In this document: piece by piece, positions 30,898 through 37,450 of the stretch
Position numbering within the stretch: the stretch's first letter is position 1
How the letters are laid out: each line of letters starts with the position of its first letter
Origin: Synechococcus sp. GreenBA-s
GTDB taxonomy: Bacteria; Cyanobacteriota; Cyanobacteriia; PCC-6307; Cyanobiaceae
Assembly: GCF_024345855.1 (NCBI RefSeq)
Contig: NZ_JAGQBX010000002.1
Location: forward strand, 1-64,000
DNA length: 64,000 nt
Reading direction: 5' to 3'
The notes under the pieces: model-generated
What the model was told of the DNA's origin: nothing
Databases searched by the model: none
What the model saw: only the letters and a program-made list of their open reading frames with translations
Made by a program: the position numbers and the translations under genes

Positions 30898-31905
30898 TCA
30901 CCCGTGGGCCCCCTGGAAGGTGATCGCGGCCATGGCGTAGTCGCGCGGCTCGAGGTGGATCGTGCAGCGCACCGGCCCGAAGCGCTCGGCCAGGTGCTCC
31001 TCCACCGCCTCGGTGATGGCGTGGGCGCTGGTCAGATCGTCGGCGTCCACCACCATGTGCAGCTCGATGAACACCCGCTGGCCCAGCACGCCGCGGCTGG
31101 CGATGTCGTGCACGTTGAGCACGCCGGGCACCCCCATCGCCACGGCGTGGATGGCCTCCGGCGCGATCGCGATCTGGTCCACCAGCCAGGGCAGGTTGGC
31201 CCGCACCACCTGCCAGCAGGCCCGCAGCAGCAGCAGACAGAGGGGGATGGCCACCGCCACGTCGAACCAGGTCTGGCCCAGCAGCAGCACCCCCGCCAGG
31301 CCCAGCAGCACCATCACGGTGGTCCAGATGTCGCTGGTGGTGTGGCGGGCGTCGGCCAGCAGCAGCTGGCTGTTGAGCCGGCGGCCGGCTCTGCGCTCGT
31401 AGGCCGCCAGCACCAGGTTGCAGCCGAGCACGAGCACCAGCAGCACCAGCTCCTGGCTGTCGAGCCGCAGCGGCCTGAGGCCGGTGGCCAGGCGGGTCAC
31501 GGCCGTGCGCAGGATCTCAAAGGCGGTCAGCAGGATGAAGCCGGCGATGGCCAGGGCCCCCACCGCTTCGTATTTGTCGTGGCCGTAGGGGTGGTCGCGG
31601 TCGGGCTCCGGATCGGAGAGGCCGTTGGTGATCAGCCCCAGCAGGCTGGAGAGGCCGTCGGTGGCGCTGTGCATGGCGTCGGCCAGCACCGCCAGCGAGC
31701 CGCTGGCCAGGCCCACCACCAGCTTCAGCAGGCTCATGGCCACGTTCACCGCCAGGGCCACCAGCAGCACCCGCTTGACCTCCCGACGGGTGTCGGGGGC
31801 CTGGGGGTCTCCGGCCCTCGCGGCCCGGGCCCAGGGCACGGCGCCGCCGCCCGCGCTGGCCTGGCTGAAGACGGATCCCATGCAGCAGCCTCGCCCGATG
31901 CCCAT
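30898..31905 (-). CDS. Cation diffusion facilitator (divalent metal exporter)
   Basis: CDF proteins export Zn, Fe, Co, Mn or similar ions in exchange for protons. The protein has about six membrane segments, with the metal site in DAMHSATDGLSS (segment 2) and the matching DARHTTSDIW (segment 5). The HPYGHDKYE loop and the cytoplasmic C-terminal domain with HDIASRGVLGQRVFIELHM are typical. The HxxxD site in segment 5 would fit several metals, so the substrate is open. Starts at 31905 or at 31881 are both possible. Confidence 0.9.
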   Translation of the reverse strand: MGIGRGCCMGSVFSQASAGGGAVPWARAARAGDPQAPDTRREVKRVLLVALAVNVAMSLLKLVVGLASGSLAVLADAMHSATDGLSSLLGLITNGLSDPEPDRDHPYGHDKYEAVGALAIAGFILLTAFEILRTAVTRLATGLRPLRLDSQELVLLVLVLGCNLVLAAYERRAGRRLNSQLLLADARHTTSDIWTTVMVLLGLAGVLLLGQTWFDVAVAIPLCLLLLRACWQVVRANLPWLVDQIAIAPEAIHAVAMGVPGVLNVHDIASRGVLGQRVFIELHMVVDADDLTSAHAITEAVEEHLAERFGPVRCTIHLEPRDYAMAAITFQGAHG

Positions 31906-32054
31906 CCGAGCTCCAAGCTATGGGCTCCAGGCTGCTGCGGCTGGTGTCGCTCGACGCCATCCGCCTGGGCAGGCCGCGGGGCCTGAGCTAGAGAGGCTCG
32001 GACCCGACCGCCAGCCCCCGCCCTCCCGGCGACCGGGCCCGTGCTCCTCCGGCC

Positions 32055-33482
32055 TTGACCCCACCCGACACCAGTCCCCCCCTCCCGACCGCCCCCGGGG
32101 CAGCCCCCTCGGGCGCTGTGCCCCTTGGCTCCGGTGCCCTGGAGGCCGTCCTCAGGCCTGCGCTGCGGCGCTGGTGGCCCGTGGGGGCCGCGGTGCTGGG
32201 CGGGGGCTGGCTGCTGGGCGACAGCCTGCACCTCTCGCTCTCGTCGGTCGTGGCCCTCTCGGCCGCCGCCGGGGGCCTGTGGCTGCTGAACGGCCGCAGC
32301 CGGCCCGTGGCACCCCGCCTGCCGGCCTCCTCCCAGGGCTGGCTGAGCCGCTGTGGGGCCGTGCTGACGCAGTTCGAGCGCCTGGAGGGGGCCGACGCGC
32401 CGGCCCTGCCGGGACGCCGCGCGGCCCTGGCGGCCCTGCAGGCGCACCAGGAGCGCCGTCATCTGGATCTGGCCCTGGTGGGCTGTGACCTGCCCGATCC
32501 CCAGCTGCAACCCCTGCTGGCCCAGGCCTGTCGCGCCCCGCTGCCCGTGCGGCTGCACTGGGGCCTGCCGCTGCCGGCCAGCAGCCCCGGCTGGCGGTGG
32601 CCGGAGCTGTTCCACCGCTGCGACCACCTGCTCTATTGCCTGCCGCTGCCGCTGCGGGCCTCGGATCTGCGCTGGCTGGAGGCCCTGCCGGCGGGGCAGT
32701 CGGTGTGGCTGCTGGTGGAGCGCGGCGAGACGGCGGGCTGGCCCCGGCGCCAGCAGGAGCTGGAGGGGCAGCTGCCGGAGCGACTGCGACAGCGCTGGCT
32801 GGCCTGGGATCCCGCCAGCCGCGACGGCGAGGCCCTGGCCCTGGCCCTGGCTCCCCTGGCGGCGGAACTGGGCCGCAGCGCCCCGCTACAGCTGGAGCGC
32901 ACCCAGTGCCGCTGCCTGGAGCAGCTGCACGGGCGCTGGCAGGTGGAGCTGGAGGCCCTGCGCCGCAGCCGCTGGCAGGTCCTCGTGGCGCGCACCCAGT
33001 GGACGGTGGCGGCTGGGGTGGTGGTGGCGCCCCTGCCCAGCCTCGACCTGCTGGTGCTGGCGGCCGCCAACGGCCTGATGCTGCAGGAGATGGCCAGGCT
33101 GTGGGACTGCAGCTGGTCGTCGGAACAGCTGCAGGCGGCGGCCCGCGAACTGGCCAAGGCCGCCCTCACCCTTGGGGTGGTGGAGTGGAGCTCCCAGGCC
33201 CTGGCCTCGCTGATCAAGCTGCACGGCGCCACCTGGCTGGTGGGTGGAACCCTGCAGGCCCTGAGCGCGGCCTACCTGACCCGGGTGGTGGGCCGGGCCA
33301 TGGCCGACTACCTGGCGCTGGCCTCGGGCGTGCCGGAGGACCAGCTGGGGGCGCTGCTGCAGCGGCAGGCCCCGCTGCTGGTGGCCCGGGCGGCCGAGGA
33401 GGAGCGGCACGACTGGGCCGGCTTCCTGGAGCAGGGCCGCCACTGGTGGCGCCAGCAGGCCCTGGCGGCTGGCCCGACCTGA
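32055..33482 (+). CDS. DUF697-type membrane-associated protein with a degenerate GTPase-like region
   Basis: An N-terminal membrane pair (about residues 40-85) is followed by a region without recognisable G1 (P-loop) residues, where related cyanobacterial proteins carry a GTPase domain. The C-terminal 170 residues match the DUF697 / YcjF pattern, with hydrophobic helices such as TVAAGVVVAPLPSLDLLVLAA and LMLQEMARLWDCSWS. It may be a non-hydrolysing member of this group. The annotated start is a TTG; a GTG at 32116 is an alternative. Function unknown. Confidence 0.7.
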   Translation: MTPPDTSPPLPTAPGAAPSGAVPLGSGALEAVLRPALRRWWPVGAAVLGGGWLLGDSLHLSLSSVVALSAAAGGLWLLNGRSRPVAPRLPASSQGWLSRCGAVLTQFERLEGADAPALPGRRAALAALQAHQERRHLDLALVGCDLPDPQLQPLLAQACRAPLPVRLHWGLPLPASSPGWRWPELFHRCDHLLYCLPLPLRASDLRWLEALPAGQSVWLLVERGETAGWPRRQQELEGQLPERLRQRWLAWDPASRDGEALALALAPLAAELGRSAPLQLERTQCRCLEQLHGRWQVELEALRRSRWQVLVARTQWTVAAGVVVAPLPSLDLLVLAAANGLMLQEMARLWDCSWSSEQLQAAARELAKAALTLGVVEWSSQALASLIKLHGATWLVGGTLQALSAAYLTRVVGRAMADYLALASGVPEDQLGALLQRQAPLLVARAAEEERHDWAGFLEQGRHWWRQQALAAGPT

Positions 33483-33517
33483 CCTGACAGACCGGCACTT
33501 CGCAACTCTTCGCAAAG

Positions 33518-33551
33518 CCTTCGTGAAGTGCTTCATGAAGCAACACGAAGG
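33518..33551. repeat. Nested inverted repeats upstream of psbA
   Basis: CCTTCGTG (33518-33525) and CACGAAGG (33544-33551) form a perfect 8-base inverted repeat. It encloses the perfect 12-base palindrome GCTTCATGAAGC (33530-33541). Further CTTCG copies lie just upstream (33498 and 33508) and downstream (33582). The block is about 95-130 bases before the psbA ATG, where a regulator could bind. No such symmetry is seen at the other promoters in this window. Confidence 0.7.
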
Positions 33552-33645
33552 TGGCTCACGTTCGTTGTCGTTCACCGGTCACTTCGAACGCGCTGCCTAG
33601 CGTGGCCATGCCACATCCCGTGGTATTCCCGTACTCATTCGGTCC

Positions 33646-34722
33646 ATGACCACTGCCCTTCGCAGCGGCCGCGCTGGAAGCTGGGAACGCTTCTGCAAGT
33701 GGGTCACCTCCACCGACAACCGCATCTATGTGGGTTGGTTCGGTGTGCTGATGATCCCTTGCCTGCTGTCGGCCACCATCTGCTACATCATCGCCTTCAT
33801 CGCGGCTCCGCCCGTTGACATCGATGGCATCCGAGAGCCCGTGGCTGGTTCGTTCCTCTACGGCAACAACATCATCTCTGGCGCTGTCATCCCCAGCAGC
33901 AACGCCATCGGCCTGCACTTCTATCCCATCTGGGAAGCCGCCAGCCTCGACGAGTGGCTCTACAACGGCGGTCCCTATCAGCTGGTGGTGTTCCACTTCC
34001 TGATCGGCATCTCGGCCTACATGGGCCGCCAGTGGGAGCTCTCCTACCGCCTGGGCATGCGCCCCTGGATCTGCGTGGCCTACAGCGCTCCGCTGTCCGC
34101 CGCCTATGCCGTGTTCCTGATCTACCCCTTCGGTCAGGGCTCCTTCTCCGACGGCATGCCCCTCGGCATCTCGGGCACCTTCAACTTCATGCTGGTGTTC
34201 CAGGCTGAGCACAACATCCTGATGCACCCCTTCCACATGCTGGGGGTGGCCGGTGTGTTCGGCGGCAGCCTGTTCTCCGCCATGCACGGCTCGCTGGTGA
34301 CCTCCTCCCTGGTGCGTGAAACCACCGAGACCGAGAGCCAGAACTACGGCTACAAGTTCGGCCAGGAAGAGGAGACCTACAACATCGTGGCTGCCCACGG
34401 TTACTTCGGTCGCCTGATCTTCCAGTACGCCTCCTTCAACAACAGCCGCAGCCTGCACTTCTTCCTGGGTGCCTGGCCGGTGGTGGGCATCTGGTTCACC
34501 TCCATGGGCATCAGCACCATGGCGTTCAACCTGAACGGCTTCAACTTCAACCAGTCGATCCTGGATGCCCAGGGCAAGGTGCTGCCCACCTGGGCGGACG
34601 TGCTCAACCGCGCCAACCTCGGCATGGAAGTGATGCACGAGCGCAACGCCCACAACTTCCCCCTCGATCTGGCCGCGTCCCAGGTGACCCCCGTCGCCCT
34701 GACCGCCCCCGCGATCGGCTGA
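33646..34722 (+). CDS. psbA: Photosystem II D1 protein, D1:1 type (Gln130)
   Basis: D1 is the core photosystem II subunit that carries the Mn4CaO5 cluster, TyrZ, and the QB site. It has 358 residues; numbering here is one less than standard. TyrZ is Y160, P680 ligand H197, Mn ligands D169, E188, H331, E332 and D341, and the mature C-terminal Ala is A343, followed by a 15-residue tail that CtpA removes. Standard position 130 (here 129, in YMGRQW) is Gln, the D1:1 low-light-type residue; D1:2-type forms carry Glu. The coding sequence uses more C- and T-ending codons than its neighbours, as expected for a highly expressed gene. It has its own terminator. Confidence 0.99.
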
Positions 34723-34758
34723 GGGCCTGCCGCCCCTGCCGCCCTGCGGCGACCCCAG

Positions 34759-34784
34759 AGCCCCCGCTGCGGCGGGGGCTTTTT
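34759..34784 (+). terminator. Intrinsic terminator of psbA
   Basis: AGCCCCCGC (34759-34767) pairs with GCGGGGGCT (34772-34780) over a 4-base loop, followed at once by a run of T. It sits 37 bases after the psbA stop and separates psbA from mntC. Confidence 0.92.
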
Positions 34785-34813
34785 CGTAGGCTCCACCCGT
34801 CGGGCGCGCGCCC

Positions 34814-35797
34814 ATGGTCCTCTCACCGATCGGCGGCGGCTGCGGGCCCCAGCGGTTCCGCCGGCACCTGGCCTGGGCCCTGGTCGCCCTGGGCCTCGCG
34901 AGCCTGACGCTCGCCGGCTGCAAGCCCGGACGGCAACCGCAGCCGACGAGCCCAGGGACTGCGGAGAGCGGCAAGCCCCGGGTGCTGACCACCTTCACCG
35001 TGATCGCCGACATGGCCCGCCAGGTGGCGGGGGATCGGCTGCAGGTGGAGTCGATCACCAAGCTGGGGGCCGAGATCCACGGCTACGAGCCCACCCCGAG
35101 CGACCTGCAGCGGGCCAGCGGCGCCAGGCTGATCCTGGAGAACGGCCTCAACCTCGAGCGCTGGGCCGAACGCTTCCACGCCAGCCTGCCGGACGTGCCG
35201 CGGGTGACCCTGAGCGCCGGCATCACGCCGCTGCCGATCAGCGAAGACGCCGGCCGCGGCCAGCCCAATCCCCACGCCTGGATGTCGCCGCGGCTGGCCG
35301 AGATCTACGTGGAGAACCTGCGCGCCGCCTTCACCAAGCTCGATCCGGCCGGCGCCGCCACCTACCGGCGCAACGCCGAGGCCTACCGCCGCCAGCTGCG
35401 CCAGCTCGACCGCGAGTTGCGCCAGGGCCTGGCCGCCCTGCCGGCCGCGCAGCGGGTGCTGGCCACCTGCGAGGGGGCCTTCTCCTACCTCGCCCGCGAC
35501 TACGGCCTGCAGGAGGCCTACCTCTGGCCCGTCAACGGCGAGAGCCAGGTGACCCCCCAGCGGCTGGCCCGCCTGATCGATCTGGTGCGCCGCCGCCGCG
35601 TGCCGGCGGTGTTCTGCGAGAGCACCGTGAGCGACGAGGCCCAGCGCGAGGTCGCCCGCGAGGCCGGCAGCCGCTTCGGCGGGGTGTTCTACGTCGACTC
35701 CCTCTCGCTGCCTGACGGGCCCGCCCCCAGCCTGCTGGCGCTGCAGCGCCACAACCTGCGCACGCTGGTGCAGGGGCTGCGCGGTGCGGGAGGCTGA
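34814..35797 (+). CDS. mntC: Manganese ABC transporter, binding lipoprotein MntC
   Basis: MntC captures Mn2+ in the periplasm for the MntCAB importer. A lipobox ends at C36 (LAGC). The four Mn ligands known from Synechocystis MntC fall at identical positions: H89 (in EIHGYEPTPSD), H154 (in NPHAWMSP), E220 and D295 (in FYVDSLS). The known regulatory disulfide pair is also matched as C219 and C268. This supports Mn rather than Zn. The gene leads the operon mntC-mntA-mntB and lies 91 bases after psbA, separated by a terminator. Confidence 0.95.
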   Translation: MVLSPIGGGCGPQRFRRHLAWALVALGLASLTLAGCKPGRQPQPTSPGTAESGKPRVLTTFTVIADMARQVAGDRLQVESITKLGAEIHGYEPTPSDLQRASGARLILENGLNLERWAERFHASLPDVPRVTLSAGITPLPISEDAGRGQPNPHAWMSPRLAEIYVENLRAAFTKLDPAGAATYRRNAEAYRRQLRQLDRELRQGLAALPAAQRVLATCEGAFSYLARDYGLQEAYLWPVNGESQVTPQRLARLIDLVRRRRVPAVFCESTVSDEAQREVAREAGSRFGGVFYVDSLSLPDGPAPSLLALQRHNLRTLVQGLRGAGG

Positions 35798-35801
35798 AGC
35801 G

Positions 35802-36611
35802 ATGGTTGATCCGCCCCGCGAGACCCTGCCCTCCGGCTCCGATGCTTCCGCTCCCCTGCCGCCCGAACGGATCGCCGTGGAGGGGCTCTGCGTGGATTAC
35901 CACGGGGTGGTGGCCCTGCACGAGGCCTCGCTGCGGGTGGCCCCCGGCAGCATCTGCGGCCTGGTGGGCATGAACGGCGCCGGCAAATCCACCCTGTTCA
36001 AGGCGCTGATGGGCTTCGTGCGGCCGTCGCGCGGCACGATCCGCATCAACGGCGCCCCCCTGGCCCAGGCCCGCCGCGAGCAGGCCGTGGCCTACGTGCC
36101 CCAGACCGAGAGCGTCGACTGGAACTTCCCGGTGAGCGTGGCCGACGTGGTGATGATGGGCCGCTACGGCCGCATGAACCTGCTGCGCCAGCCCCGGCCC
36201 CAGGACCGCCAGGCCGTGCGCGACAGCCTGGAGCGGGTGGCCCTGTGGGACCTGCGGGACCGCCAGATCGGCGAGCTCTCCGGCGGCCAGCGCAAGCGGG
36301 CCTTCCTGGCCCGGGCCCTGGCCCAGGGGGCCACGGTGCTGCTGCTCGATGAGCCCTTCAACGGCGTGGACATCCGCACCGAGGGCCTGATGGTGGAGCT
36401 GTTCGAGCAGTTCCGGCGCGAGGGGCGCAGCGTGCTGATCTCCACCCACGACCTGGCCCACGTGAGAGGCTTCTGCGACCAGGTGGTGCTGATCAACCGA
36501 ACCGTGCTGGCCTACGGGGCGATCGACGAGGTGTTCACCGAGGAGAACCTGGCGCGCACCTTCAGTGCCGTGGTGGCCGGCCTGGGTACCAGCCCCGGGG
36601 GAAGCCGCTGA
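35802..36611 (+). CDS. mntA: Manganese ABC transporter ATPase MntA
   Basis: This subunit hydrolyses ATP for Mn import. Walker A is GMNGAGKST, the signature LSGGQRKR, Walker B TVLLLDEPFNGVD and the switch His in STHDLAH. The YVPQTESVDWNFPVSVADVV stretch is typical of Mn/Zn-family ATPases. I chose the ATG at 35802, preceded by GGGAGG at a good distance; a GTG at 35784 would overlap mntC. Its stop and the mntB ATG share one base (TGATG). Confidence 0.95.
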   Translation: MVDPPRETLPSGSDASAPLPPERIAVEGLCVDYHGVVALHEASLRVAPGSICGLVGMNGAGKSTLFKALMGFVRPSRGTIRINGAPLAQARREQAVAYVPQTESVDWNFPVSVADVVMMGRYGRMNLLRQPRPQDRQAVRDSLERVALWDLRDRQIGELSGGQRKRAFLARALAQGATVLLLDEPFNGVDIRTEGLMVELFEQFRREGRSVLISTHDLAHVRGFCDQVVLINRTVLAYGAIDEVFTEENLARTFSAVVAGLGTSPGGSR

Positions 36612-37450
36612 TGGAGGCCCTGCTCTGGCTCACGGAGCCCCTCAGCCACGCCTTCATGGTGCGGGCCCTGCTGGTCAGCCTGCTGGTGGCCACGGTCTGC
36701 GGCCTGCTCTCCTGCTTCCTCACCCTCAAGGGCTGGGCCCTGATGGGGGATGCGGTGTCCCACGCCGTGATGCCCGGGGTGGTGATCGCCTACGCCCTGG
36801 GGCTGCCCTTCGCCGTGGGCGCCTTCGTCTTCGGCGTGGGCTCGGTGGCCCTGATCGGCTACATCAAGCAGATGACGCGGATCAAGGAGGACACGGTGAT
36901 CGGCCTGGTGTTCACCGGCTTCTTCGCCCTGGGCCTGACGCTGATCTCGAAGCTGCGCAGCTCGATCGACCTCACCCACATCCTCTTCGGCAACGTGCTC
37001 GGCATCAGCGCCGCCGACATCCAGCAGACGCTGCTGATCAGCGGCCTGGTGCTGGCGGTGCTGCTGGTGTTCCGGCGCGACCTGATCCTGTTCTGCTTCG
37101 ATCCCACCCACGCCCGCTCGATCGGCCTCAATACCGGAGTCCTGCACTACCTGCTGCTGGCGGTGCTCTCCCTGGCGGCGGTGGCGGGCCTGCAGACGGT
37201 GGGCATCATCCTGGTGGTGGCGATGCTGGTGACCCCCGGGGCGACCGCTTACCTGCTGACGGACCGCTTCGATCGGATGAGCTGGATCGCCATCGCCTCG
37301 GCGATGCTCTCCAGCGTGGTGGGCATCTACCTGAGCTACTGGCTCGATGCCTCCACCGCCGGCTGCATCGTGCTGGTGCAGACCGGGCTGTTCCTGCTGG
37401 CGTTCCTGTTCGCCCCCCGCCATGGCCTGCTGGCCCAGCGGGCCCGCTGA
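36611..37450 (+). CDS. mntB: Manganese ABC transporter permease MntB
   Basis: A 279-residue ABC-3 family membrane protein with about eight to nine hydrophobic segments. The block LSCFLTLKGWALMGDAVSHAVMPG is typical of Mn/Zn permeases, and VGIILVVAMLVTPGATAYLLTDRF is the conserved late segment. It forms the channel for MntCA. It overlaps mntA by one base. Confidence 0.95.
   Translation: MEALLWLTEPLSHAFMVRALLVSLLVATVCGLLSCFLTLKGWALMGDAVSHAVMPGVVIAYALGLPFAVGAFVFGVGSVALIGYIKQMTRIKEDTVIGLVFTGFFALGLTLISKLRSSIDLTHILFGNVLGISAADIQQTLLISGLVLAVLLVFRRDLILFCFDPTHARSIGLNTGVLHYLLLAVLSLAAVAGLQTVGIILVVAMLVTPGATAYLLTDRFDRMSWIAIASAMLSSVVGIYLSYWLDASTAGCIVLVQTGLFLLAFLFAPRHGLLAQRAR

Follow-up and report, generated by a model that had tools for sequence, protein, structure and literature searches.

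A putative three-unit operator upstream of the low-light psbA gene (D1:1) of Synechococcus and related picocyanobacteria

Why should a set of nested inverted repeats lie in the short spacer that precedes a psbA gene, and on which molecule, DNA or RNA, would they act? The window, i.e., the whole stretch of 64,000 nucleotides analyzed here, contains on its forward strand a psbA gene at 33646..34722 (ATG at 33646; PF00124, E 3.2e-88) whose product is a D1 protein of the D1:1 type, with glutamine at residue 130. This residue is a marker of the D1 isoforms, Gln130 denoting D1:1, according to PMC3441193. The upstream neighbor on the same strand (32055..33482, start codon uncertain) encodes a DUF697 protein (PF05128, E 1.5e-32) and ends 26 bp before the first of the sequence units described below. 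Over positions 30898-37450, psbA stands between this gene and a ZnuA-type metal-uptake gene, ABC-transporter-like genes come after the latter, and a cation-efflux (CDF) gene lies nearby. The same genome carries, on contig C1, a gene for a divergent full-length D1 (L002; 80% identity, Glu130), which lacks the array described here and is perhaps a special-purpose D1, as well as a truncated extra psbA on contig C45 (L003; 6199-6546), a psbA-like fragment in which D1 residues 2-117, at 69% identity, are followed by unrelated sequence.

The original prediction placed at 33518-33551 an 8-base inverted repeat enclosing a perfect 12-base palindrome, and proposed that it might serve as a transcription factor site or, if psbA has a long leader, as an RNA hairpin. 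As a description of the sequence this is accurate: the block reads CCTTCGTG-AAGT-GCTTCATGAAGC-AA-CACGAAGG, the arms of the outer repeat being located at 33518..33525 (CCTTCGTG) and 33544..33551 (CACGAAGG), and two more CTTCG copies are found 5′ of it within GCACTTCGCAACTCTTCGCAAAG. Perfect 12-bp palindromes nevertheless occur 48 times in the window vs. 44.8 on average in 200 simulations with a first-order Markov model, and the nested layout, present once in the window, appeared 48 times in the 200 simulated windows (0.24 per window), so that by itself it is only mildly unusual, about one being expected by chance in every four such windows. Since both the palindromes and their nesting are near chance expectation, the item as first described is weakly significant. 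Moreover, the nested inverted repeat was rejected as a functional unit because the nearest relative (locus L009, from the closest genome, G177; 89% identity over 280 bases) has lost both the outer repeat, whose 8-bp stem shows two mismatches there, and the exact 12-bp palindrome. Part of the right arm, CGAAGG, is kept in L009 and missing from most other loci; this arm is perhaps a degenerate fourth unit of the array. No Rfam family matched in the window, and a generic promoter and terminator scan returned nothing in 33300-33750.

The nested appearance is a by-product of palindromic units standing side by side. Hidden in the region is an array of three TTCATGAAG-like units, each of them a 9-bp near-palindrome of the form TTC(A/G)(T/C)GAAG, separated by steps of 11 and then 12 bp. 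Unit 1 (33509..33517) is the degenerate TTCGCAAAG; unit 2 (33520..33528), overlapped by the left arm of the outer repeat, is TTCGTGAAG and has an aligned counterpart in 43 other loci; unit 3 (33532..33540) is TTCATGAAG itself and forms the core of the palindrome GCTTCATGAAGC (33530-33541). The whole thus reads TTCGCAAAG-CC-TTCGTGAAG-TGC-TTCATGAAG. At the corresponding place L009 has TTCATGAAG-CT-TTCGCGAAG-TAC-TTCACGAAG, i.e., TTCATGAAG where the window has its degenerate unit, and three TTC-xx-(G/A)AAG units that keep their register, with steps of 11 and 12 bp. Conservation in relatives, the check that accompanied the original prediction, therefore gives a divided answer, the exact repeat being lost in L009 and the three-unit array being kept. 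The unit centers have drifted in the window and its nearest relative (GC, GT, AC), and are usually AT in the arrays before psbA of other genera.

Scoring all three units at fixed spacing (maximum 27), the window reaches 23, whereas none of 100 shuffles of its upstream region exceeded 15. With a threshold of 20, the array was detected in 43 of 73 upstream regions of Q130-type or untyped psbA genes, in none of 19 regions chosen as belonging to E130-type or divergent copies, and in one of 9,200 shuffled regions. It is present in all nine loci of genus g1 (window included), in 9/9 of g5, 8/8 of g35, 16/17 of g34 and 1/3 of g48, and in none of the 27 psbA upstream regions from ten other genera. All of the g5 loci and most of those of g34 had been fetched by the motif itself; leaving out motif-fetched loci and the window, the figures are 8/8 for g1, 7/7 for g35, 2/3 for g34 and 1/3 for g48. 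The array almost always accompanies the D1:1 (Q130) copy, Gln130 being encoded in 38 of the 43 loci and Glu130 in two (L052, L068), with three untypable. The array cannot be taken as general for D1:1 genes, since 30 of the 73 loci that are of Q130 type or untyped score less than 20: the 27 of the ten other genera, two in g48 and, narrowly, L209 in g34. With its score of 18, the latter was included manually to give the set of 44 loci used for column information, geometry and motif comparison. In this set, the columns of the units carry much information and those of the spacers mostly little, the G-A-A side tending to be the least variable part of a unit. The third base of unit 2 (C) is replaced by G in g35 and, by eye, part of g34 has steps of 11 and 11 bp, with unit 3 one base nearer to unit 2. 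In genera devoid of the array, the psbA genes (L010, L012, L019, L030, L033, L035-L037; Q130 in those typed) are preceded, 5′ of the -10, by direct repeats of the TGAAG type spaced by about 10 bp.

A whole-genome search for a tight two-unit pattern gave matches in 47 of 400 family genomes, distributed in 4 of 59 genera, and none with the reversed control. Thirty places were fetched from these 47 genomes, and all 30 lie directly 5′ of psbA; the analysis also covered those of G134, G115, G200, G064, G150, G165 (L213-L218) and, through L144, G244. When up to two mismatches were allowed in the genome of the window, the perfect match occurred only at this psbA locus. In a wider contig scan, seven of the 119 loci listed had the two-unit pattern 5′ of psbA by a motif test, all of them from picocyanobacteria; the matches listed there were mostly scattered, in other phyla. 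Viral carriage was considered and discarded: the pattern is found on 49 viral contigs, and a psbA-like motif in none of the stretches fetched. No description of the element, including the string TTCATGAA, was found in the open-access literature searched by title and abstract start, a scope too narrow to establish its novelty.

The position of the array relative to the promoter is what best defines its probable mode of action. A predicted -10 hexamer, TAGCGT, is located at 33598..33603 on the forward strand, so that units 1, 2, and 3 start 89, 78, and 66 bp 5′ of it, respectively. Among the 44 loci, the interval between the start of unit 3 and a -10-like TAnnnT measures 66 bp in 30, 65 bp in ten (all from g34) and 67 bp in one, i.e., 65-67 bp in 41; in the other three, TAnnnT is absent at 64-67 bp. 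In turn, the distance from unit 3 to the ATG extends from 62 to 170 bp, the minimum corresponding to L228, whose ATG call is doubtful; the ATG was probably called too far upstream in L228, L021, L024, L034, and L222 (longer N-termini), which affects the ATG distances alone. That the distance to the -10 is fixed, independently of leader length, constitutes the main argument that the array acts as DNA on the start of transcription. As in operators generally, the unit sequence is conserved with unconserved spacers, and the phase to the predicted -10 is fixed (41/44 loci). Altogether, we regard the 33518-33551 block as probably the right-hand part of a putative three-unit operator, through which a DNA-binding regulator would act on the low-light psbA (D1:1) gene. 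The transcription factor site of the original prediction is thus supported in an amended form, as a three-unit array that starts 9 bp further upstream, while the hairpin and long leader are not supported.

How such an operator could work is suggested by the light responses of these genes. The exchange of D1:1 for D1:2 is a response of marine Synechococcus and their relatives to high light and UV. In strain WH7803, as reported in PMC3441193, D1:1 is encoded by a single gene, which is down-regulated around midday, and about five times more so under UV, while the D1:2 genes rise. If transcription started about 7 bp after the predicted -10, a start that is itself a prediction, the array would span approximately -101 to -70, and a protein bound to units roughly one helical turn apart would largely occupy a single face of the DNA. 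The simplest interpretation of an array lying upstream in fixed phase is an activator site used in low light; the bound factor would then be an activator under these conditions, released or changed in high light or UV, although repression from these positions would be just as possible. A small dimeric protein with cooperative binding would be well suited to such a row of three palindromes, each about one turn from the next. MetJ and Arc, ribbon-helix-helix repressors, bind their tandem operators in this way, with one dimer per unit and cooperativity; they share with our array the short palindromes in tandem but differ in operator sequence.

Similar units exist at other photosystem II promoters. 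The genome of the window has a single second copy of GCTTCATGAAGC, located 7 bases before the ATG of a psbD gene (contig C84). TGTAA(C/A)(C)GCTTCATGAAGC or a close form occupies this position in 16 of the 20 psbD loci fetched from the genus (L282-L301), the remaining four, which belong to the other psbD copy (L296-L299), being without it; in the 16 (L282-L295, L300, L301) it corresponds to a nearly invariant element, TGTAACGCTTCATGAAGC, which precedes the monocistronic psbD just after a -10-like hexamer. By eye, further genera present the form GTAA-CGCTTC(A/G)T(G/T)AAG, slightly modified; in most cases a -10-like hexamer begins 19 bases before it. A psbC-like motif follows the other psbD of G134 and G064 but not their element-bearing psbD (the G134 stretch being short). 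According to PMC7393227, the monocistronic psbD of WH7803 responds to high light and UV with strong induction. A unit placed just after the -10 is in a repressor position, and would repress this gene in low light.

As for the D1:2-type promoters, a single unit with up to two mismatches lies exactly 36 bp before TACAnT in 8 of the 19 E130 or divergent copies, all of them in g5 and g34, where they represent 8 of 11 E130 loci. These units take the form TTC(A/G)T(G/A)AA(C/G) before the -10-like TACAnT (L195, L197-L201, L207, L208). The case for a sharing of the factor of the array by the psbD and D1:2 promoters consists, for each of them, of a single 9-mer. If one factor were bound in low light and released in high light, D1:1 would be on and psbD low, and then the reverse. 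Known RpaB targets, psaA and hli, were inspected for signs of a changed RpaB specificity; TTCATGAAG units were found in none of the six psaA upstream regions. Upstream of psaA, in several genomes (L369-L374), TTGAACCTTTGTAACTC or close variants lie some 300-350 bases 5′ of the match to the PsaA domain and look like a reversed HLR1-type pair.

RpaB, a member of the OmpR family, is the best-known protein with a position-dependent logic of this kind, and is the main rival to a new factor. The array could be a lineage variant of its box, HLR1, bound as direct repeats, with low-light psbA activated from upstream and psbD repressed from its start site, a reading that we consider rather unlikely. The likeness is one of layout and logic: repeated half-sites about one helical turn apart stand 5′ of a low-light psbA and, as set out in PMC13421787, low-light psbA1 is activated from upstream boxes and high-light genes are repressed from boxes over the start. 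Furthermore, the TGTAAC of the psbD element is the reverse complement of an HLR1 half-site, the array is slightly nearer to HLR1 than random 42-mers, and the TGAAG repeats seen by eye about 10 bp apart in some array-less relatives could possibly be an RpaB-type alternative. As to position, the activating boxes of RpaB are located between approximately -45 and -66, and the array would cover about -101 to -70 with a start 7 bp after the predicted -10. The sequence itself, however, does not fit. The consensus KTTACAWW-N2-KTTACAWW is not matched by the near-palindromic units, the best match over the array leaving 5-8 mismatches of 16 in the 44 loci, and the spacing is 11/12 bp vs. 10 bp. In addition, near-canonical HLR1 boxes were found before hli genes in three of six genomes (G061, G141, G102), with one or two mismatches and 28-51 bases before the start codons (L345, L349, L350), TTCATGAAG units being found in none of the hli upstream regions inspected. 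RpaB there thus probably keeps its usual specificity and, together with the failure of HLR1 sequence and spacing at the array, this favors a factor other than RpaB. Among other cyanobacterial regulators with known boxes, several of them linked to redox or stress, the reported consensus of PedR (RWWTRGGYNNYY), Rre1 (GTNCGGK), SufR (CAAC-N6-GTTG), and LexA (AGTACWNWTGTACT) are, by eye, unlike TTCATGAAG.

An action in RNA, with the inverted repeats forming a hairpin in a long psbA leader that controls stability or translation, we judge very improbable. The segment of the window does fold well as RNA (-18.7 kcal/mol, z -3.3), but palindromic units are expected to do so by construction; the array lies 5′ of the conserved -10-like hexamer and keeps a constant distance to it and not to the ATG, and the outer stem is broken in L009. 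That the units came together by chance in a short spacer, or were kept passively since a recent common ancestor, agrees with the chance level of 12-bp palindromes in the window but is scarcely credible given the shuffle controls and an array kept in four genera and one locus of a fifth while flanks and spacers diverged.

We therefore return to the three-unit operator and a protein different from RpaB. Our tentative proposal, possible but still far from secure, is that of an undescribed regulator dedicated to the photosystem II reaction-centre genes of picocyanobacteria, for which three units would switch on D1:1, and single units would tune D1:2 (from a position 36 bp 5′ of the -10) and, just after the -10, keep the stress-induced psbD low. 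From this it would follow that one psbD copy answers to the factor of the array with the opposite sign. The cis site offers a concrete bait for the factor controlling the D1:1 side of the D1:1/D1:2 switch and, if the proposal were true, one and the same factor would set both the exchange of D1 isoforms and the supply of D2.
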